In this document: positions 7,465 to 48,859 of the stretch, one piece after another
Position numbering within the stretch: the stretch's first letter is position 1
Layout: the number at the start of each line of letters is the position of its first letter
From: a virus
Length of the DNA: 49,362 nt
Virus record (IMG/VR): IMGVR_UViG_3300042540_001192
Coordinates: 1-49,362 of that record
Reading direction: 5' to 3' (one strand)
The notes under the pieces: generated by a model
The model's database searches: none
The model's input: the letters and a program-made list of their open reading frames with translations, nothing else
What the model was told of the DNA's origin: nothing
Position numbers and translations under genes: made by a program

Positions 7465-7484
7465 AGTCGGCTATGTAGCCGACT
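7465..7484 (-). terminator. Perfect 9-bp hairpin over a stop codon
   Basis: AGTCGGCTA and TAGCCGACT pair perfectly around a two-base centre and include the TAG stop of the tail terminator gene. There is no U-tract, so attenuation or RNA processing is as likely as termination. Confidence 0.5.
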
Positions 7485-30551: not shown

Positions 30552-31195
30552 GCAACCTCCTCGCGGGCGGGGATGTAGACCCACAGGTGATTCGGATGAG
30601 CGCCGGGGTTCGGATGCCGCAGCACGCGAATCTTGCTGTAGCCCAGCCGCTCCAACTGCCCACGCACCTCATCGACACGATCGTGAACCTCGATGATCCA
30701 CCGCGTCGAGTCGAACAAGGGCGATACGCTCGCCACGCCGGAGAGCACCTCGTGCTCTGACCCCTCGGTGTCGATCTTGATCAGATCGACCTTGTGGCCC
30801 GGCCAGAGCACCTCGGCCCACTCGGCCACCTGGGCGAGCGTCACGACGCCGACTTTCTTGACCTCGACCGTGGCGACGACCCGCTGGTCGCCGCCGCCGA
30901 TTGGGTGCTCGGGCAGGAGCGACGACTGCCGGTCGTCATCGCGTATGTAGAAATCGGCCGCACCGCAGACCGCGCCGGCCGCCACCGGCAGGAGCAGGGC
31001 GTTGGTCGGGACGCCCAACTGCCGCATCATGCCCCTGGCCCGCCAGTCCGGCTCGAGGGCCACGACCTCGTCGAAATGCGAGGCCATCCACCGCGTCCAG
31101 TCGCCGAGGTTCGCCCCCACGTCGATGGCGACGCGGCGCGGGCCGAGGGCGGCCAGAGTCTGGAACTCTTCAAGAAAAGCTTCTTCGCCTGTCAT
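30548..31195 (-). CDS. FkbM-family methyltransferase
   Basis: 215 aa from ATG 31193-31195. VAIDVGANLGDWTRWM is the SAM-binding motif I, VVALEPDW motif II and VDLIKIDTEGSEHEVLSG the typical FkbM D-x-E-G-x-E. These enzymes O-methylate sugars or side chains. It overlaps glycosyltransferase genes on both sides, so it likely methylates the sugar they add. Confidence 0.82.
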   Translation of the reverse strand: MTGEEAFLEEFQTLAALGPRRVAIDVGANLGDWTRWMASHFDEVVALEPDWRARGMMRQLGVPTNALLLPVAAGAVCGAADFYIRDDDRQSSLLPEHPIGGGDQRVVATVEVKKVGVVTLAQVAEWAEVLWPGHKVDLIKIDTEGSEHEVLSGVASVSPLFDSTRWIIEVHDRVDEVRGQLERLGYSKIRVLRHPNPGAHPNHLWVYIPAREEVA

Positions 31196-31818
31196 CTGAC
31201 AACTTCCTGCAACGCCCGCTGAACCCACCTGATTCGCTCTTCGGCCGGGAAAACGCCGCACGGGTGGCACACCAGATCACCGTGCTCCCAGTAGCCGCCG
31301 ATCTCGTCCCGTGCGTTCGCCGGGCGATTCCAGACGCAAGAGTTGAACGCCCGCTTGTCGGCCACGGTGACGATTCCGGGGTACAGATTCATCCACACGC
31401 CCAGCCAGGTCTGCCAGCCGCAGGCGAAGTCGCGCCACGCCGTATGCGTCGCCGCGACCTGCTCGAACATGAAAATGGTGTTCGGCGTAGACCGGCACAT
31501 GACGCTGCCGCAGTTGATGGGGTTCCAATCCACGATCTTTTCCTCGCAGACCGTGACGTGCGGCCCCAGGGCTTCAAGCGAGTGGATCGGCCTGGTCATG
31601 TTCGTGATCACGGCATCGCAGTCCAAGAGCCAGACCGTGTCAAACCGCCGCAGGTAGTGAATCACGCCCCCCATGTTCTCGCAGGCTTGGTCGTATGGCT
31701 GGTTGTCGATGACCAACGAATAGCCGTGCCGGAGGCAATACTCCAGCTTGTTCGGCACGGTGATGCTGGCAAGTTCTGCGACGTTCGACGACACGCTGGT
31801 GACAACGGCAACGCTCAC
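31192..31818 (-). CDS. Glycosyltransferase (GT34/GMA12-like), 208 aa
   Basis: GTG start at 31816-31818 overlapping the VRR-NUC stop (GTGA). SNVAELASITVPNKLEYCLR and HGYSLVIDNQ, then FDTVWLLDCDAVITNMTRPI with the D-x-D motif, and NCGSVMCRSTPNTIFMFEQV follow the GT34-type plan. GGYWEHGDLVCHPCGVF near the end has the conserved His. It forms the third enzyme of the sugar cassette. Confidence 0.72.
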   Translation of the reverse strand: MSVAVVTSVSSNVAELASITVPNKLEYCLRHGYSLVIDNQPYDQACENMGGVIHYLRRFDTVWLLDCDAVITNMTRPIHSLEALGPHVTVCEEKIVDWNPINCGSVMCRSTPNTIFMFEQVAATHTAWRDFACGWQTWLGVWMNLYPGIVTVADKRAFNSCVWNRPANARDEIGGYWEHGDLVCHPCGVFPAEERIRWVQRALQEVVR

Positions 31819-35588: not shown

Positions 35589-36278
35589 CTATCCGATCCC
35601 GCATTCCCCGGCAAGAGGAAACATCGTGGCCTGGGTGTCCTCCCTGAACATCCTCGCCTCGCGCTGGTATCGCTTCACCACGATCTCCAGGCACTCGCCG
35701 TAGGTCAGGAACGGAAAGTCCTTGCGGTACTTCATGGCGTCTCGCCACCAGTTGGTGCTGTCGATGCTGTCGATGCGGCGAACGTGGGAGTACGCCCGCA
35801 AAGCCCAGCCGTGGACGTGGAAGTCCTCCGGCACGTTGTCGCAGGCCCACCGGACGAAACGCTCCTTGCCCTGCCTGGGGGGCTTCAGGCCGATGCCGAT
35901 CCAGCGGTTGCGCTCGCCGGCGATTGCGATCAGGTCGCGGAGAAGCTCCGGCGGGTCGGTGTCATGGATGGTGGGGAACCCAAGGGAAAACGATTCGTAG
36001 TTGGCGAGGCTTTTTCGCCAGTCGCCGCCGATGTCGTCGAGGCCAGCGATTGCGTCGGCGTGACCAATCCACCGCTCGGCCCACTCAGAGTAAGCCCCCA
36101 GGTCTATCTGCTTGCCGGTCGTAAACGCCGAGTAGGCGCCGCTGTCGATCAGGAGCCGCCGGTAGGTGTGTTGGTAGCGATCCAGAAACGGGTCGTAGAG
36201 GGCAAACGAGAACAGCACCGGCATCCCGACGGCGTGCTCGGCCTGCTGCTGATTGCCGGGGCTGGCAAGGTAGATCAC
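35589..36278 (-). CDS. dpdA: DpdA-like TGT-fold DNA transglycosylase
   Basis: 229 aa from GTG 36276-36278, overlapping the queC stop (GTGA). VIYLASPGNQQQAEHAVG at the start, then LLIDSGAYSAFTTGKQIDLG with the D-S-G-A-Y-S of phage DpdA/TGT-like proteins, AIAGLDDIGGDWRKSLANYE, and WIGIGLKPPRQGKERF and EDFHVHGWALRAYSHVRRID from the barrel. It should exchange guanine in DNA for a 7-deazaguanine. Next to QueC and QueE, the link to preQ0-type modification is strong. Zinc-site Cys are not evident. Confidence 0.75.
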   Translation of the reverse strand: MIYLASPGNQQQAEHAVGMPVLFSFALYDPFLDRYQHTYRRLLIDSGAYSAFTTGKQIDLGAYSEWAERWIGHADAIAGLDDIGGDWRKSLANYESFSLGFPTIHDTDPPELLRDLIAIAGERNRWIGIGLKPPRQGKERFVRWACDNVPEDFHVHGWALRAYSHVRRIDSIDSTNWWRDAMKYRKDFPFLTYGECLEIVVKRYQREARMFREDTQATMFPLAGECGIG

Positions 36279-36871
36279 GCTCCAGCCTCCCGCCGTTCGA
36301 CGCAGGCACCGCAGGCGCCGCACGGCTCATCGCCGCCCTCGTAGCACGACCAGGCCAGCGAGAAATCCACGCCGGCGGCACGGCCAAGCTCGACGACTTC
36401 GCGGCGCGTCTTGTGGGCGAATGGCGCCTGCAAGCTGGCCCCGCAGCCAGCCGTGACCGCGACTGCCATCGTCTCCAGAAACCTGGGCCGGCAGTCTTGG
36501 TAGACGGCGTGGTCACTGGCGTGGCACCCGATCAGCACAGACTTGTCCCGATGCGTCGATGCCCACGATGCGGCGATAGAAATCATCACGGCGTTCCTGT
36601 TCGGGACGACGGTCGCCGACTGGGCGGGGTCATCGTGCTTTTTGCCGGCGGGGATGACGCCGGCCCCCGTCATCGGGCATGGGGGAAACGCCCCGCTGAT
36701 GTCCACGATCATGTGTCGCCTTTTGTATGCGTCGGCGATGCGCTCTGCGTGCTCGATCTCCCTGGCGTGCTTCTGGCCGTAGAAAAACGTCAGGCACAGC
36801 ACGTCCGTCTTTGCGCACGACGCAAGCATGACAAGGGAGTCGAGGCCGCCGGATAGCAGGATGACGCTCAT
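36275..36871 (-). CDS. queC: QueC, 7-cyano-7-deazaguanine synthase
   Basis: 198 aa from ATG 36869-36871 (ATGA overlap). SVILLSGGLDSLVMLASCA is the PP-loop, AQSATVVPNRNAVMISIAAS is the family's V-P-x-R-N motif, and LAWSCYEGGDEPCGACGACV is the zinc-binding Cys cluster near the end. It turns CDG into preQ0 with ATP and ammonia in the cytoplasm. It is preceded by the 108-aa protein and QueE and followed by DpdA, one tightly coupled operon. Confidence 0.92.
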   Translation of the reverse strand: MSVILLSGGLDSLVMLASCAKTDVLCLTFFYGQKHAREIEHAERIADAYKRRHMIVDISGAFPPCPMTGAGVIPAGKKHDDPAQSATVVPNRNAVMISIAASWASTHRDKSVLIGCHASDHAVYQDCRPRFLETMAVAVTAGCGASLQAPFAHKTRREVVELGRAAGVDFSLAWSCYEGGDEPCGACGACVERREAGA

Positions 36872-37194
36872 ATCGCCGGATATCCATCTCGGAGGGCAGT
36901 CGAAGTAATCCACCCGTGCGTGTCGGCCCGACCCATGACCGTCACCTGAACCCCAGGCACGTCCTCCGACAACTGCTCGGCCAGTCGCTCGACCGACACC
37001 GGCTCGAGCAGGCGGCGGCGGATGGCGGCGTCGATCTGGAGCACGTCATAGAACTTCTTCGTCACGGCCTCAAACACGCACTTCACGACCATAACGTCCC
37101 TGGCGATCTCGCAGACGCCGTTCATCTCGTCTGTCTCGTACCGCCAGCGGTGCGTCATGCTGAGAGACAGAACCGGCAGAAGCTCGTTGCTCAT
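36868..37194 (-). CDS. Conserved 108-aa protein in the que operon (copy 1)
   Basis: Occupies the place where queD would be expected, between queE and queC, with ATGA overlaps on both sides. It lacks the zinc-binding His and catalytic Cys of QueD. Typical stretches are RYETDEMNGVCEIARDVMVV, FYDVLQIDAAIRRRLLEPVS and VERLAEQLSEDVPGVQVTVM. A paralogue of equal length is encoded at 48258-48584 beside a second TGT-like gene. It may be a factor of the deazaguanine pathway. Confidence 0.7.
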   Translation of the reverse strand: MSNELLPVLSLSMTHRWRYETDEMNGVCEIARDVMVVKCVFEAVTKKFYDVLQIDAAIRRRLLEPVSVERLAEQLSEDVPGVQVTVMGRADTHGWITSTALRDGYPAI

Positions 37195-37772
37195 GGCAAC
37201 CCCCATGACTTGTGGCACTGAGGCGAAAACGTCCAGTCGTGGTTTTGCCTCACCCAATCAAGGCAGAAGGCAAGTGATTCGCGGTTTCCGGCCATCGGCT
37301 GAACGTACTGATGCCGAAATGACGTGCTGGAAAAGTCGATCGCAGCCACGTCGAGTCCGTTGAGCATGGGGACGATCTTGATCTCGTCGCCGCGCCGCAG
37401 CCAGAAGTCCGGCGAATGCGGCGAAACAGAAACCCACCCCCAGTCGGCTGAAACTGGGCGGATGCCGCTGGTTGCCAGGCAAGGGATGAAGCCGGCCGAC
37501 CACAACGCGGCCATGAGCGGCTCGAGGTCTTGGTCAGTCGGCTCGCCGCCGGTGACCCAGGCATACCTTGCCCGATTGTTGGCGTGTCGGTGCTCCAGGC
37601 ACTCCGAAGCAATCTCAACCGCGGAGCACTCTCGCCAGAAAGCGTAGTTCGTGTCGCAGGCGGGGCAGGCGACCGAGCAGCCCGCAAGGCGAATGAACAC
37701 CATCGGCTCGCCGACCAAGGCGCCCTCGCCTTGGATCGTCCAGTACACGCCTTGTCGGGCTAGCTTCAGCAT
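37191..37772 (-). CDS. queE: QueE, 7-carboxy-7-deazaguanine synthase (radical SAM)
   Basis: 193 aa. VYWTIQGEGALVGEPMVFIR precedes the cluster motif RLAGCSVACPACDTNYAFW (C-x3-C-x2-C), then YAWVTGGEPTDQDLEPLM, the second radical-SAM motif, and SGIRPVSADWGWVSVSPHS. It converts CPH4 to CDG. Start is preceded by two AAGG-ATG stretches. First gene of the que-dpdA operon. Confidence 0.92.
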   Translation of the reverse strand: MLKLARQGVYWTIQGEGALVGEPMVFIRLAGCSVACPACDTNYAFWRECSAVEIASECLEHRHANNRARYAWVTGGEPTDQDLEPLMAALWSAGFIPCLATSGIRPVSADWGWVSVSPHSPDFWLRRGDEIKIVPMLNGLDVAAIDFSSTSFRHQYVQPMAGNRESLAFCLDWVRQNHDWTFSPQCHKSWGLP

Positions 37773-37799
37773 CCTTGCATCCTTGTCGTGAGCGGTAGC

Positions 37800-38264
37800 C
37801 TAGCGTCCGTGGCTCATTGAGGCAAGGTAGGTCTGGCAGGCTTTTTTCACGGTCGGCCGGGGGTGCTCCTCGGCGGCCCAGGCGATGTACTCCTGGCCTC
37901 GCGGCGAGCGGGCGACCTCGCCGAGCGTCTGCCCGTCGAATCGGCCGCCACGCAGGAGGAAATCGGCTCCCTCGGCCGGCGGCGGCAGGTGGCCCTTGAT
38001 GACCGGCACCCACTGCCCCGTCCCGCAGAAACAGCATTCAAGCCGCCAGCGGCCCCGTTCCTCGTCGAGGATGTCGTGGCACTGGGCCTGACAACGCTGG
38101 TCAAGGCAGGGGACGCCGTCGTCCAGGCGGCCCAACGCCGGCGCCGCTTTCCCTAGATAAATAGGGGGTTTTTGCGGCGCCGGCTCTTCGGCAACAGGCG
38201 GCGCGGCCTTGCGCGCGCGGCGCGGCTGCGGCTCTTCGGGCGATGTATCGAATAGGAGACTCAT
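37800..38264 (-). CDS. Zinc-binding protein with ExoX-C-like domain, 154 aa
   Basis: ATG 38262-38264 overlaps the helicase stop. An N-terminal disordered region (SPEEPQPRRARKAAPPVAEE), then a Cys/His set (VPCLDQRCQAQCHDI; LECCFCGTGQW) and a C-terminal LRGGRFDGQTLGEVARSPRG with EYIAWAAEEHPRPTVKKACQ, similar to the small domain at the end of ExoX-type exonucleases and many phage proteins. No nuclease core is present. Probably works with the helicase. Confidence 0.65.
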   Translation of the reverse strand: MSLLFDTSPEEPQPRRARKAAPPVAEEPAPQKPPIYLGKAAPALGRLDDGVPCLDQRCQAQCHDILDEERGRWRLECCFCGTGQWVPVIKGHLPPPAEGADFLLRGGRFDGQTLGEVARSPRGQEYIAWAAEEHPRPTVKKACQTYLASMSHGR

Positions 38265-39916
38265 AGCGGCAACTCCATCCGGTACTTGGCTCGGGGGTCG
38301 TGGGCCACGATCAACTTGTGCTTCGCTCTGGTGCAGGCGACGTACTCGACCCGCCGCTCCTCGGCGAACTTGGCCTCGTCGTTTTCCTCGGCCGTGCGGG
38401 TGCGCTGGCTCTGCGTGGTCAGGAGCACGACTTTCGACGCCTCCATGCCCTTGGCGGAATGCACGGTGCCGATGCGAATCTTCGGGTCGCTGACGGCCGC
38501 GACGCCCCACTGCTTGGCGGCCCTGACCCACTTGGTCCCGCCGTCAGGCAGGCCGCTCCACGAGCCGTTTGCAATCGCCTGCCGCAGGTGCTCGGTCGCG
38601 CCAAGCTCCGACAAGTCCTCGGGGTAGATGCGGTCATACCGCTCGCTCAGACCCTTCTTCCACTGGCTCTTGCTGCCCCGCACCAGCCACTCCCGGCCGT
38701 CAACGGTCTTCGACGGGAGCATCTCGACGATGTGGCCCCACGCCTCGCCGCTGATCGCCTCGCCGTGCTGCAAGCCCCAGAGGCCCGCCATGCCGCGGTC
38801 GCGGTTCAGCGACCCCTCCTTGGCCTTCACATAACGGCACGGCACGCCGATGTCGTCGAGGATCGCCTTGATCTTCGCCACGTTGCGGTTCGTCCTGGCG
38901 ATCACCAGCGTGTCCTCGTCGGGCCGCAGGTCGTTCAGGTCGTCCTCGAAGTTGTCGCTCTCAACGACCTCGCCGTCGTGGTCGGCCGGCGCGATCCCCC
39001 GATCCCAGTAGTTCGGCAGTCGCTGGAGGCACCGCTCGGCCAGTTCCATGATCGGGGCGGGGCAGCGCCACGACTTCGGCATGATGTGTTGTTTAGTAGT
39101 CTCCCACCCCATGAAATGATCGGCCGACGCCCCGGCCCAACTGAAGAGCACCTGATAGGGGTCGCCCACGAGCCAGGCCCACTTGCAAGCCTCGCCCGTC
39201 ACCAGCCGCCGGCAGGCCAGGTCGAGCAGGCGGCTGGCGTCCTGGGCCTCGTCGAAAATCCAGCCGACCACTTCGTCGGGGACGGCCCCCTCCGGCGCGA
39301 CTTGAATCGGCCCCACCTCCGGGTCGAACTTCAGACCCACGAACCGCGACAGCAGGTCGGTGAAGTCGCAGCGGGCGTCGAGCCGCTTGGCCTGCTCGAA
39401 CATCTCGATCCGCTTGATGACCTCGTCGGCTGAGGGTGCCTCCGGGTCTTGGTCGGCCTCGACGATCTCCCGCAGGGGCAGGCAGACGTTCCTTGCCAGC
39501 GACCAGTAGTTCAAGGCCGCCGCCGCCACGGCGTCCCCGGTGTAGACGCCGATGCCACCCTCGTCCTCGTCCAGCGAGAAGGCCACGTCGCTCCCGATCG
39601 CCTCGCTCACCCACTTCGTGTCTTCCTTGCCCCCGCCGATGATCTCGCCCCGGCTCACCCCAAGCTGCCGGTAGCAGACCGAGTGCGCCGTCCGAAACCA
39701 CCCCTCCCGCATCAACTCCTCGGGCGGGATGCCCCAGGCCGCCCCACAACGCATAGCAGCCTCTGTGCGGGCCGCCCGCGTGAAAGACGAGAAACCAAGC
39801 GAGAACGGATTTCCGCCCGTCTCTGGCCTCTCCAGAGCTTTCTCGGCGATCCCCTTCATCATGGCGGTCTTTCCGGTTCCCGCCCCACCGATTGCTCGCA
39901 GACACTGGACGCTCAT
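38261..39916 (-). CDS. UvrD/Rep-type superfamily 1 helicase
   Basis: 551 aa. CLRAIGGAGTGKTAMMKGIA is Walker A, VVGWIFDEAQDASRLLDLAC Walker B, WLVGDPYQVLFSWAGASADH the motif III region, KIRIGTVHSAKGMEASKVVL motif V and EYVACTRAKHKLIVAHD motif VI. Shorter than UvrD because the 1B/2B regions are reduced. 3'-5' unwinding in replication or recombination is expected. Its Shine-Dalgarno is in the hairpin loop 39919-39937. Confidence 0.88.
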   Translation of the reverse strand: MSVQCLRAIGGAGTGKTAMMKGIAEKALERPETGGNPFSLGFSSFTRAARTEAAMRCGAAWGIPPEELMREGWFRTAHSVCYRQLGVSRGEIIGGGKEDTKWVSEAIGSDVAFSLDEDEGGIGVYTGDAVAAAALNYWSLARNVCLPLREIVEADQDPEAPSADEVIKRIEMFEQAKRLDARCDFTDLLSRFVGLKFDPEVGPIQVAPEGAVPDEVVGWIFDEAQDASRLLDLACRRLVTGEACKWAWLVGDPYQVLFSWAGASADHFMGWETTKQHIMPKSWRCPAPIMELAERCLQRLPNYWDRGIAPADHDGEVVESDNFEDDLNDLRPDEDTLVIARTNRNVAKIKAILDDIGVPCRYVKAKEGSLNRDRGMAGLWGLQHGEAISGEAWGHIVEMLPSKTVDGREWLVRGSKSQWKKGLSERYDRIYPEDLSELGATEHLRQAIANGSWSGLPDGGTKWVRAAKQWGVAAVSDPKIRIGTVHSAKGMEASKVVLLTTQSQRTRTAEENDEAKFAEERRVEYVACTRAKHKLIVAHDPRAKYRMELPL

Positions 39917-39918
39917 AG

Positions 39919-39937
39919 TTTCACTCCTTTCGTGAAA
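39919..39937 (-). promoter_or_regulatory. RBS hairpin of the helicase gene (possible CsrA site)
   Basis: TTTCAC-GAAAGGA-GTGAAA on the minus strand: a perfect 6-bp stem with AAGGA in a seven-base loop, two bases before the ATG. Its form is the one expected for translational repression by CsrA. Confidence 0.6.
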
Positions 39938-39987
39938 TGGACGCTCTGGACGGATGTTAAAATGGGTTTTCCGTCCACCTTAAACCC

Positions 39988-41793
39988 TTACGCCTCAACG
40001 ACTTCGATGCGGTGGACGGTGGACGGTGAGTGATTTTCAGTTTTGGGAAAATCCAAGTCGATTTCCCCCTTATAGAGCGTCATCCCGTCCTCGCCCGACG
40101 CCAGCGACTCCAGGGCAGTCACCCACTCCCTCGTAAAGACGATGTATTCCAGCCTCCCCGACGGGAAACGGTGGCGTTTGTGGACGAGGTCTTTGGCGTG
40201 CATGATCTCCAGCAGCTTGTTCCTGATCTTGTTCCGCTCCCCCACGGCCACGTCGTGGGCGCTGCTGATCTCCTCCCAGACCTTCCCCCACTGGAACCAG
40301 AGTTCGTCTGGCGTCACCCAGCACGGGCGGCCGGAGTCGTTCGGCTCCGGCTTTTCCTCGTCCTTGGCCTTCGTGGCCCGCCGGAAGGACTTCAAGAGGT
40401 AGCCCGCCAGTTCGGCGTACCGCTTGCTGGCCGTGCCGACCTCGATGTCGTCATCTGCCGACTTGCGGGCCATCAACTGCTCCATGATGCCGGGGATGCT
40501 GGCGCCGCCGGTCTTCTTGCTGGCATCGACCCCTTTCCAGACCGACACCCATTTCTTGGAGTCCCCGTCGAGGATCACCCGGTGGGTGGCGTTGAACACG
40601 GCCGAGGCCACCTTGGCGGCCGACCGGAACGTGTCGAGGGTCATGTTGACCCGCCCCCCGCACGGCGTGCGGCGCCACTGCGGCACGACCAGCACGATCT
40701 CGGGGGGGTCGCCCTTGATCATCTCGATCCGCCACGTCCCCACGCGGTAGCCGCGCACCTCGCCGGCCTGGTACGGCTCGAGGCCGTGGGCCTCCAACCC
40801 CACGACCGCGACGGCGTCCTCGGGATTGACCTCCTCCTCGAGCTTGGCCGCCTCGGCCTTGACGGCCTCCTCAGTCATATCGGACGGCGAGACGCGCCAG
40901 CCCTTCTCCTGCTTCTTGCGAAAGTGCTCGAAGCATGAGTTGATGATCTGAAGCGCCTCGCTCGCGCTCTTTGGCGGCTTGATGTACTTCTCGTTGGCGT
41001 CGCGAATCTCTTGCGTCAGCACGGCCCGCCGGTGTGGCGAAAGCGGGTCGCGGTCGTTGACGATCTTGTTCCACGCCCACATGAGCAGGGCATCGTGCCG
41101 CCCCTCGCCGTCGTGAACCTCGCGGAAGACGAGCGGCCCCTGGTACTTGATGCCGCTGCCGCCCCCGCTGCTGCTGCCGGCCGCCGCGGCATTGCTGATC
41201 TGCACCAGCAGAACCTTCGGCGTGTCGGCGATGTCGATGTCGTCGATCGACAGGTCTGGCCTCCACTTGTACTGGACGCCGGTGTTGTGCCACGACGGCG
41301 GCAGCACGCTCTGAATCTGCCGGCCCCCGGCCCCGATCCGGCACTCAAGGCCGCCCGGCTTCTGCACGCCGCCGCAGTCAGAGAGGGAGTCATGCCAGCG
41401 GGTCAACTGGTGCGTGCTCTTCCCGCTCATCCACGACGGGGTGATCAGTTCGTTCAGCCCCAGCGACTCGCGGAAGGCCGTGGCCTCGGGCGAATCGTCC
41501 TCGTTGTCGATGACGCCTCCCTCCTCGCCCAGCAGGACGCCGACGTTGAACGGCACGCCGTCGTCCCACTCCAGAATGTCATCCTCGGAGCGAGCGTAGC
41601 GGTCGCCCCACTCCAGGCCCACGGGGTGCTTGCCGCAGCTCTTCTGCTTGGAGCCGCCCACGCGGCACTCGGCGTCGCCGCAGGTGCAGCGGCCGTCGGG
41701 CTTGATGCCGTGCAGCCGGACGATCCGCAGCCCCTTTGATAGGTAGAGGGCGCACCATTTGAATGTCTCGTTGAAATCAAACTCGAATGCCAC
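39988..41793 (-). CDS. Bifunctional DNA primase/polymerase (prim-pol) replication protein
   Basis: 601 aa from GTG 41791-41793 with GGGAGG upstream. Residues 10-180 are the prim-pol part: ALYLSKGLRIVRLHGIKPDG, a Cys-rich insert (CTCGDAECRVGGSKQKSCGK), HPVGLEW, VPFNVGVLLGEEGGVIDNED with the D-x-E metal motif, and later SGKSTHQLTRWHDS. The C-terminal half has no helicase motifs and looks like a DNA-binding extension with winged-helix character. It probably primes phage replication. Confidence 0.78.
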   Translation of the reverse strand: MAFEFDFNETFKWCALYLSKGLRIVRLHGIKPDGRCTCGDAECRVGGSKQKSCGKHPVGLEWGDRYARSEDDILEWDDGVPFNVGVLLGEEGGVIDNEDDSPEATAFRESLGLNELITPSWMSGKSTHQLTRWHDSLSDCGGVQKPGGLECRIGAGGRQIQSVLPPSWHNTGVQYKWRPDLSIDDIDIADTPKVLLVQISNAAAAGSSSGGGSGIKYQGPLVFREVHDGEGRHDALLMWAWNKIVNDRDPLSPHRRAVLTQEIRDANEKYIKPPKSASEALQIINSCFEHFRKKQEKGWRVSPSDMTEEAVKAEAAKLEEEVNPEDAVAVVGLEAHGLEPYQAGEVRGYRVGTWRIEMIKGDPPEIVLVVPQWRRTPCGGRVNMTLDTFRSAAKVASAVFNATHRVILDGDSKKWVSVWKGVDASKKTGGASIPGIMEQLMARKSADDDIEVGTASKRYAELAGYLLKSFRRATKAKDEEKPEPNDSGRPCWVTPDELWFQWGKVWEEISSAHDVAVGERNKIRNKLLEIMHAKDLVHKRHRFPSGRLEYIVFTREWVTALESLASGEDGMTLYKGEIDLDFPKTENHSPSTVHRIEVVEA

Positions 41794-41824
41794 CGAAACC
41801 TCCCTGCTTCGTTGTGTGAGAAAC

Positions 41825-41860
41825 CCTCCCCGGCCCCGCTGCTCGCAGGGGCCGGGGAGG
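41825..41860 (-). terminator. 13-bp GC hairpin between two replication genes
   Basis: CCTCCCCGGCCCC and GGGGCCGGGGAGG pair perfectly around a ten-base loop. It lies in the 198-base gap 41794-41991, which also has the smaller hairpin CCCC-GTTTA-GGGG and no gene. Without a T-run it may attenuate rather than end transcription. Confidence 0.55.
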
Positions 41861-41991
41861 TTCATTCCGCCAGCCGGCATGGTGGGAAAGAAACACCAGA
41901 GGCTCGGCCGACTTGCCGGGTTACTTCGCCACTCACGGCCCTGGGCGACCGGCCCCTAAACGGGGTTTGCGCCGCCGGCCCGGCGGCTGGA

Positions 41992-42765
41992 CTACTCCTC
42001 GTCGTCGCCGGTGACGGGCGCCGCGGCGCCGCCGGGGATCGCCGAGAACATCGCCTTCAACGGCTCGGTGTAGAGCCTCCTGGCGATCTCACCCTGCTCC
42101 TCGGTGATGGTGCCAGCGAGCCGCGGCACGATCATCGAGTAGGGCTGGCCGCTGCCACCCTTGGCCTTCTCGAGCTTCAGGCCCAAGACGGCCTCGTAGT
42201 GGAAGCAGGGCAACCGCTTCCGAAACGGCATCCAACTCGCGAGCGAGCCGGGGCCGACCGTCACGAGCATCGGCCACACGTCGCCCTCGCGGAGGAGAGC
42301 GATGATGCGGGACTCCTTGACCCGCTTGCCGCTGCCCTTGCCGCCGCCGTAGCCAAACTCCGGCCCGGTAGAGAGCGCCGCCCAGTCATACTTGCGGTCG
42401 CCGATCCGATACTTCTCCAGCGCCTTCGGGTCGATGCCGCCGAGGTCATCGCTGACCCGGTAGCCGACCAAGAGGTCGTTGGTGATCACCACCGGCCGCT
42501 GCTCCGTCGGGTCTTCCGAGGGCCAGAGCACGCCGCGCTTGGCCTCGCCGACAAACAGGCCGACGATCTCGTCGCACGTCTCCTGATTGCCGTTGATCTC
42601 CACCTGCCACTTCGTCGCCCCGCCCAGGGGCGTCTTCACCCGCACGAGATCAGTCTCGCGCATCGGCTCGTCACCGAGGTTCTGCTCGATGATCCGGGCC
42701 TGCCGACTATCCGCCCGAAGGGCCGGGTAGTCAATCGTCTTCACGGTCGCAATCGCTGTTGTCAT
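41992..42765 (-). CDS. Conserved phage protein next to primase, 257 aa
   Basis: Typical stretches are VKTPLGGATKWQVEINGNQE, GLFVGEAKRGVLWPSEDPTE, PVVITNDLLVGYRVSDDLGG and MLVTVGPGSLASWMPFRKRL. Ends acidic (APVTGDDEE), like single-stranded DNA-binding proteins. It lies between primase and recombination/helicase genes. A ssDNA-binding or recombination-mediator role is a guess from position and tail. Its start is held in a small hairpin. Confidence 0.6.
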   Translation of the reverse strand: MTTAIATVKTIDYPALRADSRQARIIEQNLGDEPMRETDLVRVKTPLGGATKWQVEINGNQETCDEIVGLFVGEAKRGVLWPSEDPTEQRPVVITNDLLVGYRVSDDLGGIDPKALEKYRIGDRKYDWAALSTGPEFGYGGGKGSGKRVKESRIIALLREGDVWPMLVTVGPGSLASWMPFRKRLPCFHYEAVLGLKLEKAKGGSGQPYSMIVPRLAGTITEEQGEIARRLYTEPLKAMFSAIPGGAAAPVTGDDEE

Positions 42766-42784
42766 GGTAGTTTTCTCCTTACCA
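42765..42784 (-). promoter_or_regulatory. Hairpin with AGGAG loop at the start of the 41992 gene
   Basis: TGGTA-AGGAGAAAAC-TACCA on the minus strand. The second arm includes the A of the ATG, so the loop presents the Shine-Dalgarno while the start is partly paired. Weaker than the csrA case. Confidence 0.4.
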
Positions 42785-42809
42785 GACGACTATCAAACCA
42801 GGCACCACC

Positions 42810-43256
42810 TCAACGTGAGGCGACGTGCCGCAGCACTGGGCGAACAAACTCGCCCACCAACCCATCGAACTCCGTCCCTTCCGAGTAGGGCCGGCGGGGG
42901 TCCGTCCCCGCCTCCTTGGCCCTCTCGGTCAACTCAGCTTTCAGCCGAGCCGTGTTTATCTGCGTGACCTTATCCAGCAGTCCCGCAGACCGAGCAGCCT
43001 CCATGACCTGCTCCTTTCGCGCCTCCGGCGCAGAGAACGAGTGACTCCACTCGATCCTCCAGCTCCTCCCTGCGGCCTTGACTCCATCCAAGCGGCCGTT
43101 CGTCATCTCCTCGATGGCGATGCCCTCGAGGTGGCCCCGCCGTTCCTTGAGCGAGTCGATCTTGTCGTTCAGCTCCTTGACCTGCGCGTCGATCTCGCTG
43201 ATCTCAGCGAGCGCCTGTTGCAGCGGCGCGACCGGCGTATCCGTCGATGATTGCAT
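42810..43256 (-). CDS. Hypothetical protein with N-terminal coiled coil, 148 aa
   Basis: Strong AAGGAGG before ATG 43254-43256, overlapping the helicase end by 53 bases. QALAEISEIDAQVKELNDKI and DSLKERRGHLEGIAIEEM form a coiled coil, followed by GVKAAGRSWRIEWSHSFSAP and a helical end. The plan recalls Gam-like or siphovirus proteins of DNA end protection, without a firm match. Confidence 0.6.
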   Translation of the reverse strand: MQSSTDTPVAPLQQALAEISEIDAQVKELNDKIDSLKERRGHLEGIAIEEMTNGRLDGVKAAGRSWRIEWSHSFSAPEARKEQVMEAARSAGLLDKVTQINTARLKAELTERAKEAGTDPRRPYSEGTEFDGLVGEFVRPVLRHVASR

Positions 43257-44607
43257 TCACCACCTCCTTGCGTTCTCTTAGTGCCTCGTACACGCGGCCG
43301 TCCACCGTGGAGCGGCCGTTTGCGGTTGCGGTCAGGTGATAGATGACCGCGCGTCGTTCCTGACCAGGGCGATGCAGGCGAGCCACGGCCTGCTCGTATT
43401 CTGCGAGACTGTAGCCTAGCGAGTAGAAGACGGCATAGGCCGCCCGCGTCAGATCGATGCCGATGCCGCCCGACTGAATCTGGGCGATGAGCACGCTGGT
43501 CTTGCCGGCCTGCCAGTCCGCGAGTTCGTTGCGGCTGCCGGATAACTCGCTGACCGTTCGGTTGGCTGCATTTGCAGCCGACCGGACGGCCAGTATGTCA
43601 CTCGTGAACCGGCAAAAAACCACGAACGGCTCGTCTTGGGGGGAATCCTCCAGCATATCCGCGACACGCGCCGCCTTGGCGGGGTTCCCGCTGGAAATCT
43701 GTTTAGCAGTAGACTCTCCGTCGAAGCGGACGTAGCCGCCGCAGATTTGCTGGAGCCGGAGCAACTGCACCAGGGCGTTTGCCGGCGTGACGGTGCCTCG
43801 ATCGCAGACGGCGCAGAACTCCCGCTCCACCTCGCGGTAGAGGCGGGCCTCGCCGGCCTCCATCTCCACCGGCTCGTCGATGAACTGGATCGGCGGGAGG
43901 TCAAGAACATCCTCGCTCTTGATGCGGTGCGTTGTGGCGGCGATCTTGGCGTGGGCCTCGGGCAGGTTCTTGAAGGCCACGACCATGCCCGGCTGGTGCG
44001 GGTTCATGACGGCGTACTTCGCCCGGTGCATCGTGAACGTCTGACCGAACGTCGTCAGGTCGGGGGACTCGAGGCTGCGGTAGATCGCCCACACGTCGAG
44101 GATGCTGTGCGGCACGAGCGTCCCCGACAGGCCGTAGCGGCGGGCCTTCTGGTTCTTCTTCGTCATCCGCCCGGCCCACCGGCTGGCCGCGCCGCTGGGA
44201 GCCTTGAGCCGATGAACCTCGTCCCAGACGAGAACGTCCCACTTCTGCTTCTCAAGCTCGTCCATCCGCCAGGCAGACTCGTAGTTGATCACGATGATGA
44301 CCGGCGACAGGTCGGCCATCGCGTGGGCGAACTGCTTCTGCTTCTTGGCCTTCGTCGAGCCGTCGAGCAGGACGATGCGAACGTGCGGACACCAGAGGCT
44401 GACTTGCTTCTGCCAGGCCGGCATCACGGCCTTCGGACAGCAGACGAGAATGCGGGTCGCAGCAAGCTGGGCGATACACCGCAGAATCAGGGCCAGCGTC
44501 GTGGCCGTCTTGCCCGACCCCATGCCGTGGTGGAGGATGGCCCAGGCCCGGCCCCAGGCCCAGTTCACCGCGTCCTGCTGATGCTTCCACAAGTTCACCG
44601 CAGCCAT
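43204..44607 (-). CDS. SNF2/DEAD-type superfamily 2 helicase
   Basis: 467 aa. AWAILHHGMGSGKTATTLAL is Walker A, WDVLVWDEVHRLKAPSGA motif II, RRYGLSGTLVPHSILDVWAI motif III, VLIAQIQSGGIGIDLTRAAY motif V and QAVARLHRPGQERRAVIYHL motif VI with the Q-R-x-H-R-x-G-Q form. Common in phages as a replication or recombination motor. AAGGAG touches the ATG directly, so the GTG nine bases on is an alternative start. Confidence 0.88.
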   Translation of the reverse strand: MAAVNLWKHQQDAVNWAWGRAWAILHHGMGSGKTATTLALILRCIAQLAATRILVCCPKAVMPAWQKQVSLWCPHVRIVLLDGSTKAKKQKQFAHAMADLSPVIIVINYESAWRMDELEKQKWDVLVWDEVHRLKAPSGAASRWAGRMTKKNQKARRYGLSGTLVPHSILDVWAIYRSLESPDLTTFGQTFTMHRAKYAVMNPHQPGMVVAFKNLPEAHAKIAATTHRIKSEDVLDLPPIQFIDEPVEMEAGEARLYREVEREFCAVCDRGTVTPANALVQLLRLQQICGGYVRFDGESTAKQISSGNPAKAARVADMLEDSPQDEPFVVFCRFTSDILAVRSAANAANRTVSELSGSRNELADWQAGKTSVLIAQIQSGGIGIDLTRAAYAVFYSLGYSLAEYEQAVARLHRPGQERRAVIYHLTATANGRSTVDGRVYEALRERKEVVNAIIDGYAGRAAATGAR

Positions 44608-44628
44608 CTCCTTGGCGAGGCGGTGAAC
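44593..44628 (-). promoter_or_regulatory. 9-bp hairpin enclosing RBS and start of the SNF2-type helicase gene
   Basis: GTTCACCGC and GCGGTGAAC pair perfectly; the 18-base loop contains AAGGAG and the ATG, and the inner arm is the codon 3-5 region. Opening of the stem would be needed for elongation, not for the first contact of the ribosome. Confidence 0.5.
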
Positions 44629-44651
44629 TTATCGGATGGCTAGTCGGTTCG

Positions 44652-45227
44652 TCAAGACAATTTCCGCGGCCTCCCGATTTTCCCGCCTGCGGCCTGCATG
44701 GCCCGCACCTTGGCGACGTTCGCAAGGCACGACCGGCGCGACAGGATGAACTGGCGGCCGACCGTCGAGGACCGCCGCTGCCCCCAGGCCACGCGACCGA
44801 CGATCTCCCCTCGGGCGACCAGCCGGGCGATGAACGAGGGGTGGACACTGAGTATTTTCGACGCTTCGGCCACGCCGATTGCGTCGTCGAAGGAGATCGG
44901 CGCCTCAACGGCCCTCAGAGCCTTCAAGACGGCCGGACGGAGGTTGAGGTAGGAGCGGGGCCGCCGGCCGACCGGATCGCTGGGATCGGACTTTCTGTCC
45001 TCGTAGTCGATGTAGTCCCGTTCGCACTCCTGGCCGTCGAAAATCGTTTGCCGGCGGCTGCCGGCAACGGAATAGACCTGATCAAGGACGTGGGCCGTGA
45101 GCAGCCCTTTCGCCAGCATTTTGGCCGGGGTGGCGAAATGCACCCCCATGATCGCCGCGGCCTCGAAGGCGCCGACAGCCTGACGTGTCTCGGGAGCCTC
45201 CCTTCTCAGTTTCCCGCGGGTTTTCAT
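44652..45227 (-). CDS. DNA-binding protein with two HTH segments, 191 aa
   Basis: Two similar halves: QAVGAFEAAAIMGVHFATPA with KMLAKGLLTAHVLDQVYSVA, and DDAIGVAEASKILSVHPSFI with ARLVARGEIVGRVAWGQRRS. Each is an excisionase-like HTH. Basic tail GGKIGRPRKLS. It begins the long leftward operon and faces the rightward integrase unit, the place for a lysogeny or early regulator. Confidence 0.65.
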   Translation of the reverse strand: MKTRGKLRREAPETRQAVGAFEAAAIMGVHFATPAKMLAKGLLTAHVLDQVYSVAGSRRQTIFDGQECERDYIDYEDRKSDPSDPVGRRPRSYLNLRPAVLKALRAVEAPISFDDAIGVAEASKILSVHPSFIARLVARGEIVGRVAWGQRRSSTVGRQFILSRRSCLANVAKVRAMQAAGGKIGRPRKLS

Positions 45228-45243
45228 CGTTTCTGGTTTGGAC

Positions 45244-45273
45244 TTGATAGTGGAGGATAGGGGATTCTAAGAT
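45244..45273 (+). promoter_or_regulatory. Sigma70-type promoter of the integrase unit
   Basis: TTGATA, an 18-base spacer and TAAGAT. RNA would start near 45280 and read the 45315 gene and the integrase. Confidence 0.55.
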
Positions 45274-45314
45274 CACCAGCCATGACCGGCACGACCCGCA
45301 CGAAAGGAATCGTC

Positions 45315-45542
45315 ATGGCTGCGAAGGATTGTCGCTCTGGGAAAACCCGTGTTCAAGCCAACCTTACCCGCGATCAGGTCAAAGCCCTGTTTTCGGCCGT
45401 CAACACGGCTGGCTTGCTCTCCGCAGGCCGGATCCGCCGGCACGACAGCAAGCAGGAGATTGCCCTGCTGGCCGCCCTCGACGCCCTCGAGCAGGCCAGC
45501 GGACTGTGTCAGGCCGACGCTGACGAGTGGCTGCTCGACTAG
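45315..45542 (+). CDS. Hypothetical protein, 75 aa
   Basis: ATG 45315 after AAAGGA. MAAKDCRSGKTRVQANLTRD, then VKALFSAVNTAGLLSAGRIR and ALLAALDALEQASGLCQADA. Small helical protein just before the integrase; an accessory or directionality role is possible but unsupported. The gap 45543-45665 has a small GGGCA/TGCCC hairpin and no gene. Confidence 0.55.
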   Translation: MAAKDCRSGKTRVQANLTRDQVKALFSAVNTAGLLSAGRIRRHDSKQEIALLAALDALEQASGLCQADADEWLLD

Positions 45543-45665
45543 ACCAACGGTGCCGAGCGCCGTCGCAGCCGGCCTAACTGCCAGCCACATTTTTGAGTTT
45601 GAAGGGGGTGGGCATTTGCCCCGGCTAGGGGATAGCGCATCATCCCTCTACCTAGTGGTGACGCC

Positions 45666-46514
45666 ATGACGCTTGAGGAACTTCTGGATGGGTACTACTC
45701 CCCGCTCAAAGGGGTATCCGCTCGCACTGAGAAACTCTATCGCTACACCATTCAGGCGTTCGGCGAGCACCTCGGCAGGCCGCCGAACGTGCATGACCTC
45801 GAGGAGCTGACGGTTGCGAGGTTCTTGGCGGCCCGGCTCCGCGACAAGGCCGTCGCCACTGCCGCCAAAGACAGGACGCAGGTTCATGCGCTTTGGGAGT
45901 TCGCGGCCCGCCGCGGCCTGACCGACAAGTGGCCGCAGATTCGCCGCATCCGCGTGCCGGAGCGGGTGCCGCAGGCGTGGCTGACTGACGAACTCCAGAG
46001 ACTGCTTGACGCCGCCGGCCAGCGCGAGGGCGTGATTGCCGGCGTGCCCGCTCGCCTGTGGTGGCGGTCGATGATCCTGGCGTGCTACGAGGTCGGCGAG
46101 CGGTGCGCGGCCATGCTGGCCGTCGAGTGGCGAGACGTGACGCCCGCCGGCATTCTGCTGCGCGCCGAGACAAGAAAGGGGGCGACGCGCGACCTCTGGC
46201 GGCCGATCTCGCCGGCCTGCCACGCGGCCATCGAGGCGACGAGGACGAGCCGGGTGCTGGTCTGGGAGTGGGATCGCTGCTACACGAACCTCTGGCGGCA
46301 CCTGGGCATGATCTGCAAGGCCGCTGGCCTCCCGAACGACCGCTGGAGCAAGTTCCACCGCATTCGGAAGACACACGCCTCCTACGCCGCGGCGGCGGGC
46401 CTGGACGCCCAGCGGCTGCTCGACCACGCCTCGCCGAAGACGACGAGGGCATACCTCGATCCTCGGATCGTCCGGCCGCCGTCGGCGCCTGACGTGCTGC
46501 CGAAGGTGGGGTAG
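45666..46514 (+). CDS. Tyrosine recombinase (phage integrase)
   Basis: 282 aa. N-terminal SAM-like domain (LEELLDGYYSPLKGVSARTE; LTVARFLAARLRDKAV). Catalytic part: ACYEVGERCAAMLAVEW with the first Arg, LRAETRKGATRDLWRPIS with Lys, KFHRIRKTHASYAAAAG with H-x-x-R, LDHASPKTTRAYLDPRI with the His and the nucleophile Tyr. All six active residues appear present. Integration of the phage in the host genome is expected; the att site is not visible. Confidence 0.9.
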   Translation: MTLEELLDGYYSPLKGVSARTEKLYRYTIQAFGEHLGRPPNVHDLEELTVARFLAARLRDKAVATAAKDRTQVHALWEFAARRGLTDKWPQIRRIRVPERVPQAWLTDELQRLLDAAGQREGVIAGVPARLWWRSMILACYEVGERCAAMLAVEWRDVTPAGILLRAETRKGATRDLWRPISPACHAAIEATRTSRVLVWEWDRCYTNLWRHLGMICKAAGLPNDRWSKFHRIRKTHASYAAAAGLDAQRLLDHASPKTTRAYLDPRIVRPPSAPDVLPKVG

Positions 46515-46515
46515 G

Positions 46516-46611
46516 TCACTTGTGCTGCGGCACCCTGGCCGGCGGGGCGGGGTGGTCGATGCCATACATCGCATTCCCCATCACTGCCACCTGTAGCGTC
46601 TGCTCTGTCAT
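46516..46611 (-). CDS. Tiny protein, 31 aa
   Basis: MTEQTLQVAVMGNAMYGIDH then PAPPARVPQHK. ATGA overlap with the upstream 67-aa gene supports it. Ends one base from the integrase stop. Unknown function. Confidence 0.4.
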   Translation of the reverse strand: MTEQTLQVAVMGNAMYGIDHPAPPARVPQHK

Positions 46612-46811
46612 ACCTCAAGCAACTCCGCCGGGATCATAGCCCGAATCGCTTCCGCCAGCCCCCGCTCCTCTGGCGTCGGCTCGCCGTGCTGGATCAGGCT
46701 GCGGCAGTGCTGGTCGATCTGCCAGAGGGCGGCGAGGGCGGCGCGGCCCAGCCGGGCGGCGTCGTACTCGCCCTGGTCGTCGGGGAGTCGGAATCGGAGT
46801 GTCGCAATCAT
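46608..46811 (-). CDS. Hypothetical phage protein, 67 aa
   Basis: MIATLRFRLPDDQGEYDAAR then ALAALWQIDQHCRSLIQHGE and a last helix. The start L-R-F-x-L-P-D/E, with a W-x-x-D-x-x-x-R helix, is a recurring small phage protein type of unknown function. Confidence 0.6.
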   Translation of the reverse strand: MIATLRFRLPDDQGEYDAARLGRAALAALWQIDQHCRSLIQHGEPTPEERGLAEAIRAMIPAELLEV

Positions 46812-46852
46812 GTCACTTTCCGCCAGTTTATGTGCATTCGCGAACGGCGTCA

Positions 46853-46899
46853 GCCGGATAATCCGGCGTCTAACGGTGTTAGGCCGCACTGAGTGCGGC
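46853..46899. terminator. Two adjacent hairpins in an intergenic gap
   Basis: GCCGGAT-A-ATCCGGC (46853-46867) and GCCGCAC-TGA-GTGCGGC (46883-46899). They fill the gap 46812-46916 between two leftward genes. One may end or process the upstream message; an att core inside an inverted repeat near the integrase is another option. Confidence 0.4.
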
Positions 46900-46916
46900 T
46901 CAATTGCATGGTTCTG

Positions 46917-47174
46917 CTACTTGCGACTTGCGGGCATCCAGTGCGTGAAATCTTCGGGGTAGTTTGATGCCCCGCCATTTTCTCTCCACACACCAGCGTT
47001 GTCGACGTAGAGTTGCGCAATGTCCAACAGCCCACCGCACGCAGGGCCGATTCGGATCGCATAGATTTCCTCACCAATCGACGGCATACGCACCTCCACA
47101 GACACCCATTGTGGATGCCACTCGACAGCAGAACCACGCGATGCAGCGGACATATCATTCACCTCGTCAATCAT
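46917..47174 (-). CDS. DUF551-containing protein, 85 aa
   Basis: ATG 47172-47174 with AGGAG upstream. WVSVEVRMPSIGEEIYAIRI then YVDNAGVWRENGGASNYPED and FTHWMPASRK are the DUF551 pattern (W-x-x-V...P, then the final THW-x-P). Common in phages; function unknown. Confidence 0.75.
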   Translation of the reverse strand: MIDEVNDMSAASRGSAVEWHPQWVSVEVRMPSIGEEIYAIRIGPACGGLLDIAQLYVDNAGVWRENGGASNYPEDFTHWMPASRK

Positions 47175-47218
47175 GGTTGCTCCTGTGTTCGATGCCGCTG
47201 ATCGCTGGCGTTCTGCGA

Positions 47219-47860
47219 TTACCGGCAATACATCACGTCCAGCCTGTCATCCATGCCGTCAAACAGCGTCGTTTCCGGCACGCCTCGCATCTCGCGGACG
47301 AGCGAATCCAGCATGTGGTCGTACATGGCGATTCCAGACCCGTCGCAGGTGTCTGCCCCGGCCTCAGCGAAAAGCCGGAACCGCTTGGCGTTGTTCACTC
47401 GCCCGACGTGAACGTGCAGGCCCAGCGTCTTCGCCGTCTTTACGATGTCGAGCGACGCCTGGCTGTCCTTCCACGGGTCGCGCCCGCCGATGAAAACAGC
47501 TGCCATCCCGGCCCACGGGATTTCCAAGTCCTCGACGCCGTCCTGGGCCACGAAAGCCAGCGGCCAATCCTTCACGAACCGCTCGCGGTGGTTCCATAGC
47601 TCCAGCGTCCGGCGTGCGTTGCCGACAACGTCCGGCACCGTGACGAACAGGCATTCGCCCTTGTTCGCTTCCTCGCGGGCGAGCAGCGACCGGAAGCCAT
47701 TGGCATCAAAGCCTGAGAACGCACCGTTGTCGATGGCGAACATGCCGCCACCGTTGCTGAATCTCGTCAGCGGAGTGAGCAACTGCCCAGCCACGAAGTC
47801 GGGGTGTTTGGCCCGCTTCGCCAGTATGTCGTTTGCGCCCTTGTCGATGAGGAATCTCAT
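47219..47860 (-). CDS. TGT/DpdA-like protein (second, small form)
   Basis: 213 aa from ATG 47858-47860, overlapping the upstream stop. GGGMFAIDNGAFSGFDANGF, LFVTVPDVVGNARRTLELWN, PLAFVAQDGVEDLEIPWAGM, AVFIGGRDPWKDSQASLDIV and GLHVHVGRVNNAKRFRLFAE are successive barrel strands of a family often annotated queuine tRNA-ribosyltransferase in phages. The D-N-G-A-F-S matches D-S-G-A-Y-S of the other copy. Together they suggest two base-exchange activities. Confidence 0.7.
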   Translation of the reverse strand: MRFLIDKGANDILAKRAKHPDFVAGQLLTPLTRFSNGGGMFAIDNGAFSGFDANGFRSLLAREEANKGECLFVTVPDVVGNARRTLELWNHRERFVKDWPLAFVAQDGVEDLEIPWAGMAAVFIGGRDPWKDSQASLDIVKTAKTLGLHVHVGRVNNAKRFRLFAEAGADTCDGSGIAMYDHMLDSLVREMRGVPETTLFDGMDDRLDVMYCR

Positions 47861-48261
47861 GGATACCACCCGGCTAGTAGGTCGATCGCCTCATCGACGC
47901 TGCCGACGACTGCGTGGCTGTGGGCCACAAGCCACGGGCCAGGATTCTTCGACACGACCACAATGCGGCCGAGCCCGCGGGTGAAGAAGTGAAAAATCTC
48001 CATCGCTGTCCCGTGGCTCACTCGCCCGCAGTTGGCGAGCATGAAATCACAAGTCTCCATCAACTCCATGTCGTGCTTGACGATCTTCTTCTCGATTCCC
48101 TTCTCGCGGCCTCGGAAGTCTTCGCTTATGGCCGGATCCACGACATTCCACCCGCGATCTTCAAGGACTGAAGACGCATGGTTTCTCCACAGGAAAACAT
48201 CGCGGTCGTCGCAATCGAAGATCGGCCCGGCAAGGTAGATGTTTCGCGTGATGTCTTTCAC
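47857..48261 (-). CDS. Nucleoside 2-deoxyribosyltransferase-like protein
   Basis: 134 aa from GTG 48259-48261 (GTGA overlap; GGGAGGGC upstream). NIYLAGPIFDCDDRDVFLWR, IVKHDMELMETCDFMLANCG and SHGTAMEIFHFFTRGLGRIV are the NDT signature: the Y-L-A-G-P, the D-x-x-x-x-x-x-C-D and the G-T-x-x-E with the nucleophile Glu. It may free or transfer the modified base at the nucleoside level, in line with the neighbouring TGT-like gene. Confidence 0.75.
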   Translation of the reverse strand: MKDITRNIYLAGPIFDCDDRDVFLWRNHASSVLEDRGWNVVDPAISEDFRGREKGIEKKIVKHDMELMETCDFMLANCGRVSHGTAMEIFHFFTRGLGRIVVVSKNPGPWLVAHSHAVVGSVDEAIDLLAGWYP

Positions 48262-48584
48262 GATGCCCTCCCGACCGTTGACGAAATCCATCCGTGAGTC
48301 GCCGCCCGCCCGAAAACAGTGATTCGGAGATCAGGGAAGTCGTCCGACAACTGCTCGGCCAGACGCTCCACAGAAACCGGGCTCAGAAGCCGGTAGCGAA
48401 TCACTCCGTCGATTCCGAGAACGTCATAGAACGAGCGGCCGAAAGCCTCGAACACGCACCGCACAGTCATGGTGTCGTGTGCGATTTCGCAGATGCCCTC
48501 GAACTCGTCCGTCTCGTACTTCCAGATGGCGACCTTCGTAAGCTCCAGCGCCTTTTTCATCCTCGGCAGTTGCTCGGTGCTCAC
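48258..48584 (-). CDS. Conserved 108-aa protein (copy 2)
   Basis: Starts at GTG 48582-48584 (GTGA). Clear paralogue of the protein at 36868-37194: KYETDEFEGICEIAHDTMTV, FYDVLGIDGVIRYRLLSPVS, VERLAEQLSDDFPDLRITVF, GRAATHGWISS. Same length. Each copy is adjacent to a TGT-like or que gene. A shared role in deazaguanine chemistry is the best guess. Confidence 0.7.
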   Translation of the reverse strand: MSTEQLPRMKKALELTKVAIWKYETDEFEGICEIAHDTMTVRCVFEAFGRSFYDVLGIDGVIRYRLLSPVSVERLAEQLSDDFPDLRITVFGRAATHGWISSTVGRAS

Positions 48585-48859
48585 GACTTCGCCTCCTCTG
48601 CGATTACCTTGGCCCGCTTCGCCAGCCATTTGTTTCTGTAGCAGTGCCATATGTCTTGGTTCTTCTGGTAGTAGATAGCACGCCACTCAAGGTGTGCGGC
48701 CCACTGGGTTGGGGTGCATTGGGCTTTGTTGAATCCGCAGGGCTTGTGTCGTGGTGCGATGCCAACTGCACGGATGGCGGCCACCTCGGCGTCGAAGCGA
48801 TCCCACGCAGAACCAAGCGATGCAACGGACGGCTCGGCAGTGTGTTGAGGTGTAGTCAT
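48581..48859 (-). CDS. Hypothetical protein, 92 aa
   Basis: ATG 48857-48859. Disordered start (TTPQHTAEPSVASLGSAWDR), then helices: FDAEVAAIRAVGIAPRHKPC, AHLEWRAIYYQKNQDIWHCY and a basic end RNKWLAKRAKVIAEEAKS. No domain recognised. Confidence 0.55.
   Translation of the reverse strand: MTTPQHTAEPSVASLGSAWDRFDAEVAAIRAVGIAPRHKPCGFNKAQCTPTQWAAHLEWRAIYYQKNQDIWHCYRNKWLAKRAKVIAEEAKS

Follow-up and report, generated by a model that had tools for sequence, protein, structure and literature searches.

A phage gene run in which an NDT-superfamily enzyme and a predicted T-fold protein resembling QueF-Like accompany DpdA, likely in DNA 7-deazaguanine modification

The window analysed here is the whole IMG/VR virus record IMGVR_UViG_3300042540_001192 (49,362 bases), possibly a fragment, for which no closely matching phage record was found. 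Its head genes lie at 12-18 kb, and at its right end five overlapping genes occupy positions 46917-48859 of the minus strand (Table 1). The initial annotation had described a TGT-like protein, an NDT-like enzyme and a 108-aa protein there, coupled by overlaps. All three ORFs are present on the minus strand where it had placed them, and their coupling stands, but the run is longer than described by one ORF upstream, encoding a small basic protein, and one downstream, related to DUF551. The three ORFs are not chance frames, because each of the three families is found again in other contigs with its frame open and conserved. The upstream ORF overlaps p108b by 4 nt, and its family, with the motif CTPxQWAAH, is found inside or beside the cassette in L003, L004, L005, L007, L017, L027, L100 and L119. 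The NDT-like and DpdA_b genes share 4 nt (ATGA), and p108b overlaps the NDT-like gene by 34 nt, or by 4 nt if the latter begins at an in-frame GTG at 48261; this GTG may be the true start, which would fit relatives that begin just before YLAGP. The DpdA_b frame is open over 47219-47869, with the ATG at 47860 as the likelier start. The DUF551-like ORF overlaps DpdA_b and is probably the final gene of the run, with a putative tie to the cassette. Beside the run, on the plus strand, lies a tyrosine recombinase gene (45666-46514), suggesting a temperate or integrative element.

Table 1. Genes of the right-end run and of cluster 1 in the window
Feature	Coordinates	Strand	Basis or remarks
Small basic protein, CTPxQWAAH motif	48581..48859	-	Stop overlaps p108b start; recurs in sister cassettes
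p108b, 108-aa T-fold protein, QueF/QueF-L-like by predicted fold	48258..48584	-	GTG start
NDT-superfamily enzyme (NDT-like), 144 aa	47857..48291	-	Pfam PF05014, alignment, PDB profile matches, model
DpdA_b, TGT/DpdA-like, short 'DNGAFS' subfamily (phrog_15826)	47219..47860	-	phrog_15826 E 6.6e-33
DUF551-like ORF	46917..47228	-	Pfam DUF551 E 0.0012, below cut-off; phrog_924 E 5.6e-5
QueE, cluster 1	37191..37772	-	NCBIfam QueE models, best E 1.1e-25, below cut-off; homologous to Erebus QueE
p108a, p108b paralogue, cluster 1	36868..37194	-	63% identity over 94 aa
QueC, cluster 1	36275..36913	-	TIGR00364 above cut-off, E 3.2e-44
DpdA_a, TGT/DpdA-like, 'DSGAYS' subfamily, cluster 1	35589..36278	-	Aligned with sequences from Erebus, R29Z and others; hhalign against the DpdA_b family, E 1.3e-11

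DpdA_b is a predicted base-exchange protein of the DpdA/TGT family. In addition to its PHROG match, it has relatives at 38-41% identity that are annotated as DpdA-like TGT, and an alignment of 21 diverse sequences shows D44, D77, Q106, G125-G126, H151 and D173 to be invariant and N45 and K131 to be kept as well. By order and motif these residues parallel the catalytic and base-binding set of TGT, at positions that we take to correspond to the established TGT numbering. The first Asp motif, the only one aligned with the E. coli enzyme, matches its TDSGGF weakly, and the DpdA_b profile found no match in the PDB. The families of DpdA_b and of DpdA_a, the protein encoded in cluster 1, are homologous yet distinct (hhalign, 97.4%), and DpdA_a has His105 where DpdA_b has Gln106; the two subfamilies may differ in sequence or base preference. 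Both types also occur in SHIN8 and R29Z.

The NDT-like protein matches PF05014 above the cut-off (E 4.7e-9), and an alignment of 36 relatives shows Tyr19, Pro53, Asp74, Ser92, Glu98, Trp120 and His124 to be invariant or nearly so. Profile matches of the family in the PDB include NDTs and DNPH1 with similar scores, and the model (pLDDT 89) resembles an NDT (fold Z 16.8) and rat DNPH1 (15.1); both folds fit, and the fold search does not separate them. The discriminating site is six residues before the catalytic Glu (E-6), where nucleoside NDTs have an acidic residue for the 5'-OH, Asp in the T. brucei enzyme. Here it is Ser92, present in at least 90% of the 36 sequences and corresponding to S98 of DNPH1 and S97 of MilB, which bind the 5'-phosphate. 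The spacing of 24 from Asp to Glu and the Ser at E-6 are common to the NDT-like protein (Y19, D74, S92, E98) and DNPH1 (Y24, D80, S98, E104), MilB having S97 and E103 at the matching positions. Tyr rather than Phe goes with deoxyribose, and Tyr19 is as in the deoxyribose-specific DNPH1. The combination of Ser at E-6 with Tyr therefore makes a dNMP substrate likelier than a nucleoside, and judging from these residues a nucleoside NDT is a less likely identity for the enzyme than a 2'-deoxynucleoside-5'-monophosphate glycosidase or phosphate transferase. It had been proposed that an NDT beside a base-exchange protein suggests chemistry at the nucleoside level; an NDT-superfamily enzyme is indeed part of the coupled set, but the phosphate-pocket Ser with Tyr, Asp and Glu makes the dNMP level the likelier one. 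Unlike DNPH1/Rcl and MilB, the NDT-like protein has Pro53 and a SPW-H motif near its C terminus; both Pro53 and Trp120 are conserved and recall features of transferases or of DmtZ, which weakens a purely hydrolytic reading.

The 108-aa family (p108) has four invariant residues, Cys32, Asp37, Glu73 and His97, and is unnamed in Pfam, PHROGs and NCBIfam. Its AlphaFold2 model (pLDDT 90, pTM 0.83) is a beta-beta-alpha-alpha-beta-beta T-fold, for which Foldseek ranked the QueF-Like archaeosine synthase 5jyx first (E 2.3e-3); a reading of p108 as PqqD-like, based on a weak PDB match (E 0.045), was dropped in view of this predicted fold. In VIA the model aligned with QueF-Like over 96 residues at 2.0 A (Z 12.2), tied with GTP cyclohydrolase I. 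Judged by aligned range rather than residue-level superposition, Cys32 falls near the expected place of the thioimide Cys21 of QueF-Like, and Asp37 and Glu73 follow. QueF-Like (PMC5485725) and p108 have in common the predicted fold and similar lengths (105 and 108 aa), and p108 places an invariant Cys near the catalytic position with an Asp downstream of it; p108 has C-x4-D, not the C-x6-D of QueF, and its sequence was not significantly similar in any test run. None of the comparisons of its profile with QueF, QueD and FolE was significant against column-shuffled nulls; the hhalign comparison, made with a QueF profile of phage and B. subtilis sequences, gave P 0.06 and was matched by 8 of 100 column shuffles. 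The ESKSLK motif that forms the NADPH site of QueF reductases is absent from p108, and with H97 as its sole invariant His p108 has no zinc ligand set of the QueD/FolE type. For these two reasons, the function that we take as the best guess is that of a QueF-L-like enzyme with preQ0 or preQ0-DNA as its substrate.

The second copy of p108 lies in cluster 1, a queE-p108a-queC-dpdA_a array at 35589-37772. The identity between p108a and p108b bears out the initial view of the 108-aa protein as a paralogue of a que-operon protein. The distance between the clusters is 9.4 kb (from 37772 to 47219) rather than more than 10 kb, and the view of the right-end run as a separate system is not supported: the run has no base-making gene, and preQ0 genes were found nowhere in the record but in cluster 1. 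QueD and FolE were not found in the record. Since the right-end run makes no base of its own and each cluster has one pair of DpdA and p108, the two appear to form a single modification system that has two insertion enzymes.

The initial annotation had rested its case on whether the three families co-occur beyond this phage; that search was run and recovered the same families, in shuffled order, in other phages. Searching viral contigs for p108, blind to its neighbours, gave five loci. Three of these, probably close relatives, have the order h-DpdA_b-p108-NDT, with an NDT 35% identical to that of the record, and the other two have p108-DpdA_a. Searches with DpdA_b gave 80 loci and an NDT profile search gave 76; a single-sequence NDT search of viral contigs found no match, and an alignment-based search was required. 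DpdA_b-first searches that were blind to NDT also recovered it. HMM annotation of 173 sequences placed NDT beside QueE, QueD, QueC, FolE and either DpdA type, with gene order varying widely, for example h-DpdA_b-p108-NDT in L005-L007 and NDT-h-DpdA_b-p108 in L119. Most co-occurring loci have the NDT ORF overlapping a DpdA ORF or within 500 bp of one; for p108 the distance to a DpdA is at most 545 bp in all loci but that of the L019 copy (8007-8285), which is frameshifted after about residue 45 on an older metagenome contig, probably by sequencing error or decay. No p108 was found in annotated phages or in one scan of genome contigs, so the family is known here from metagenomic viruses only.

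Isolates extend the NDT association. Aminobacter phage Erebus has queE-hyp-queC-queD-NDT-folE-..-dpdA, Rhizobium phage RHph_X3_2 has queE-hyp-NDT-queC-queD-folE-..-dpdA, and ZHS has queC-folE-dpdA-..-NDT-clamp-polymerase. In RHph_X3_2 (L191) two 'hypothetical proteins' belong to these families, a DpdA at 6661-7563 (E 1e-83) and, at 3986-4375, an NDT of the same subfamily. NDT is also carried by the archaeal virus HRTV-29, which has DpdA without preQ0 genes (PMC8651126). As a control, two DpdA profiles were run against whole records, and a sister NDT subfamily retrieved by the same NDT search served for comparison. A confident DpdA was found in 26 of 44 records with the NDT subfamily and in 0 of 31 with the sister subfamily, a contrast to be read knowing that the NDT seed alignment was built from deazaguanine clusters; after clustering at 70% identity the figures were 15/28 and 0/16 (Fisher p 1.9e-4). 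Among the 22 NDT-bearing records of at least 20 kb, 11 had no confident match to either DpdA profile, and Moorella MTATph1, BDU-MI-1 and PhiCh1 have NDT without an annotated dpdA nearby. The link between NDT and DpdA is thus strong, not exclusive. Among the NDT-positive records examined for base synthesis, none of those without DpdA had QueC or QueD above the cut-off, and several of those with DpdA also had neither; the partner of NDT is therefore DpdA and not the preQ0 pathway.

The gene run is likely a DpdA-centred DNA 7-deazaguanine module. As our main reading, to which we give a probability of roughly 0.55, we propose that 46917-48859 is part of such a modification system, with p108 as the protein that tailors the base and the NDT-like enzyme as the one that acts on deoxynucleotides of deazaguanine; we infer the substrates and reactions of both proteins and the direction of the NDT-like reaction. 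QueE and QueC of cluster 1 would make preQ0, with QueD and FolE presumably supplied by the host or by an unsampled part of the genome, and DpdA_a and DpdA_b would exchange guanine in DNA for it. p108 would then act on the 7-deazaguanine, most likely by attack of the invariant Cys32 on the preQ0 nitrile in the manner of QueF and QueF-Like, yielding a base with a further modification, for example archaeosine. The NDT-like protein, as a 2'-deoxynucleoside-5'-monophosphate N-glycosidase or deoxyribose-5-phosphate transferase, would most likely free the deazaguanine base from deoxynucleotides of degraded modified DNA, so that the base could return to DpdA and the modified dNMP would be kept out of the polymerase pool.

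It is also conceivable, though we consider it rather doubtful, that the NDT-like protein is the deazaguanine counterpart of DmtZ, moving deoxyribose-5-phosphate from a dNMP to free 7-deazaguanine to give a modified dNMP. Phosphorylation would turn this product into a polymerase substrate and open a pre-replicative route in addition to DpdA. DmtZ, an NDT-superfamily enzyme of Z-DNA phages, hydrolyses dAMP and performs this transfer onto the Z base (PMC12884076), and Hutinet et al. did not rule out undetected 2'-deoxyribosyltransferases in some phages (PMC6884629). Both enzymes belong to a phage DNA modification context and have Tyr, the catalytic Glu, an uncharged pocket of the dNMP type and a Trp, which aligns with the lid Trp124 of DmtZ. 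Measured against the full DmtZ set (Tyr6/Asn77/Glu103, Pro57, Trp124), Asp74 replaces Asn77 and the equivalence of the Pro is ambiguous, as P53 aligns with P48 of DmtZ and not P57; the profile match is weak, the similarity in sequence only remote, and the cluster and presumed base are different. Against such a route, moreover, the genomic partner is DpdA, for which it has no need, and NDT-positive records with DpdA and without QueC or QueD are seen while the reverse, QueC or QueD without DpdA, is not.

An enzyme that recycles the guanine released by DpdA onto deoxyribose-5-phosphate, giving dGMP and pulling the reversible exchange forward, would fit both the dNMP-type pocket and a linkage that is to DpdA and not to base synthesis, but we see no sign of guanine specificity, hosts already salvage guanine, and we regard this as unlikely. 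That the enzyme serves general nucleotide salvage, and lies near dpdA since both sit among replication genes, seems similarly improbable: half of the large NDT-bearing records have no confident DpdA, and ZHS, Erebus and L133-L136 have clamp or polymerase genes next to the cluster, but the sister-subfamily contrast speaks against it, as do gene overlaps seen in several lineages whose gene orders differ and the recovery of NDT by DpdA_b searches blind to it. For p108, the alternative is that it represents a degenerate QueD or FolE and provides the early preQ0 steps that are missing; this would agree with the T-fold, with the VIA tie between FolE (GTP cyclohydrolase I) and QueF-L, and with neither gene having been found in the record. 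We think this improbable as well, given a single invariant His with no visible zinc site, profile comparisons with FolE and QueD that were not significant, and the occurrence of p108 twice in the record and beside DpdA alone, without que genes, in L003, L004 and L012.

Phages are protected from restriction by DpdA-based 7-deazaguanine modification of their DNA, and two recurrent, so far unassigned DpdA partners with readable active sites make the tailoring and recycling of the base accessible to testable enzymology. The base-exchange pathway itself is already known in phages (Hutinet et al. 2019, PMC6884629), whose preQ0/G+ clusters (9g, CAjan, Dp-1, HVTV-1, nt-1) have queE and queC with DpdA in common with our record and, in Dp-1 and HVTV-1, a QueF/QueF-L-type gene near the set; the record adds two DpdA subfamilies, each with its own p108, and an NDT-superfamily enzyme. 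With the bacterial dpd 7-deazaguanine DNA-modification island the record shares predicted DpdA-type base exchange; of that system it shows the modification half only, and no PADLOC-DB model matched the five proteins of the record that were tested. In the open-licence literature we found no paper that assigns NDT-superfamily proteins a functional role in dpdA clusters. Since the set turns up again in many phages that are not related to one another, the known pathway probably has undescribed parts. Z-DNA phages and deazaguanine phages would be parallel in their use of NDT-superfamily enzymes, and we put forward tentatively the broader possibility that phages have a 2'-deoxyribose-5-phosphate transferase or glycosidase dedicated to deazaguanine, a DmtZ counterpart, which works alongside DpdA and a new family of T-fold proteins by which the base in DNA is tailored.

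Several further observations concern the DpdA_b family and the remainder of the window. In SHIN8 (Seuratvirus; L010 12001-12593) and Vibrio phage R29Z (L011 4767-5351), a second short gene of the DpdA_b type, annotated as hypothetical, lies between clamp and polymerase; the SHIN8 copy is split into two overlapping ORFs, and phiG7 likewise matches in two pieces. Many viral contigs (various among L032-L097) have DpdA_b-type genes with neither NDT nor p108 close by, several of these genes lying near integrases, and these occurrences suggest that the family is larger than annotated phages imply. Relatives are also present on 167 plasmid records, 130 of them from Pseudomonas and mostly 'hypothetical' among the matches listed, possibly representing prophage-plasmids or a plasmid modification system. 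Elsewhere in the window, at 29691-31818, three ORFs overlap on the minus strand, the middle one encoding a methyltransferase (phrog_8156) and the outer two appearing glycosyltransferase-like by eye.
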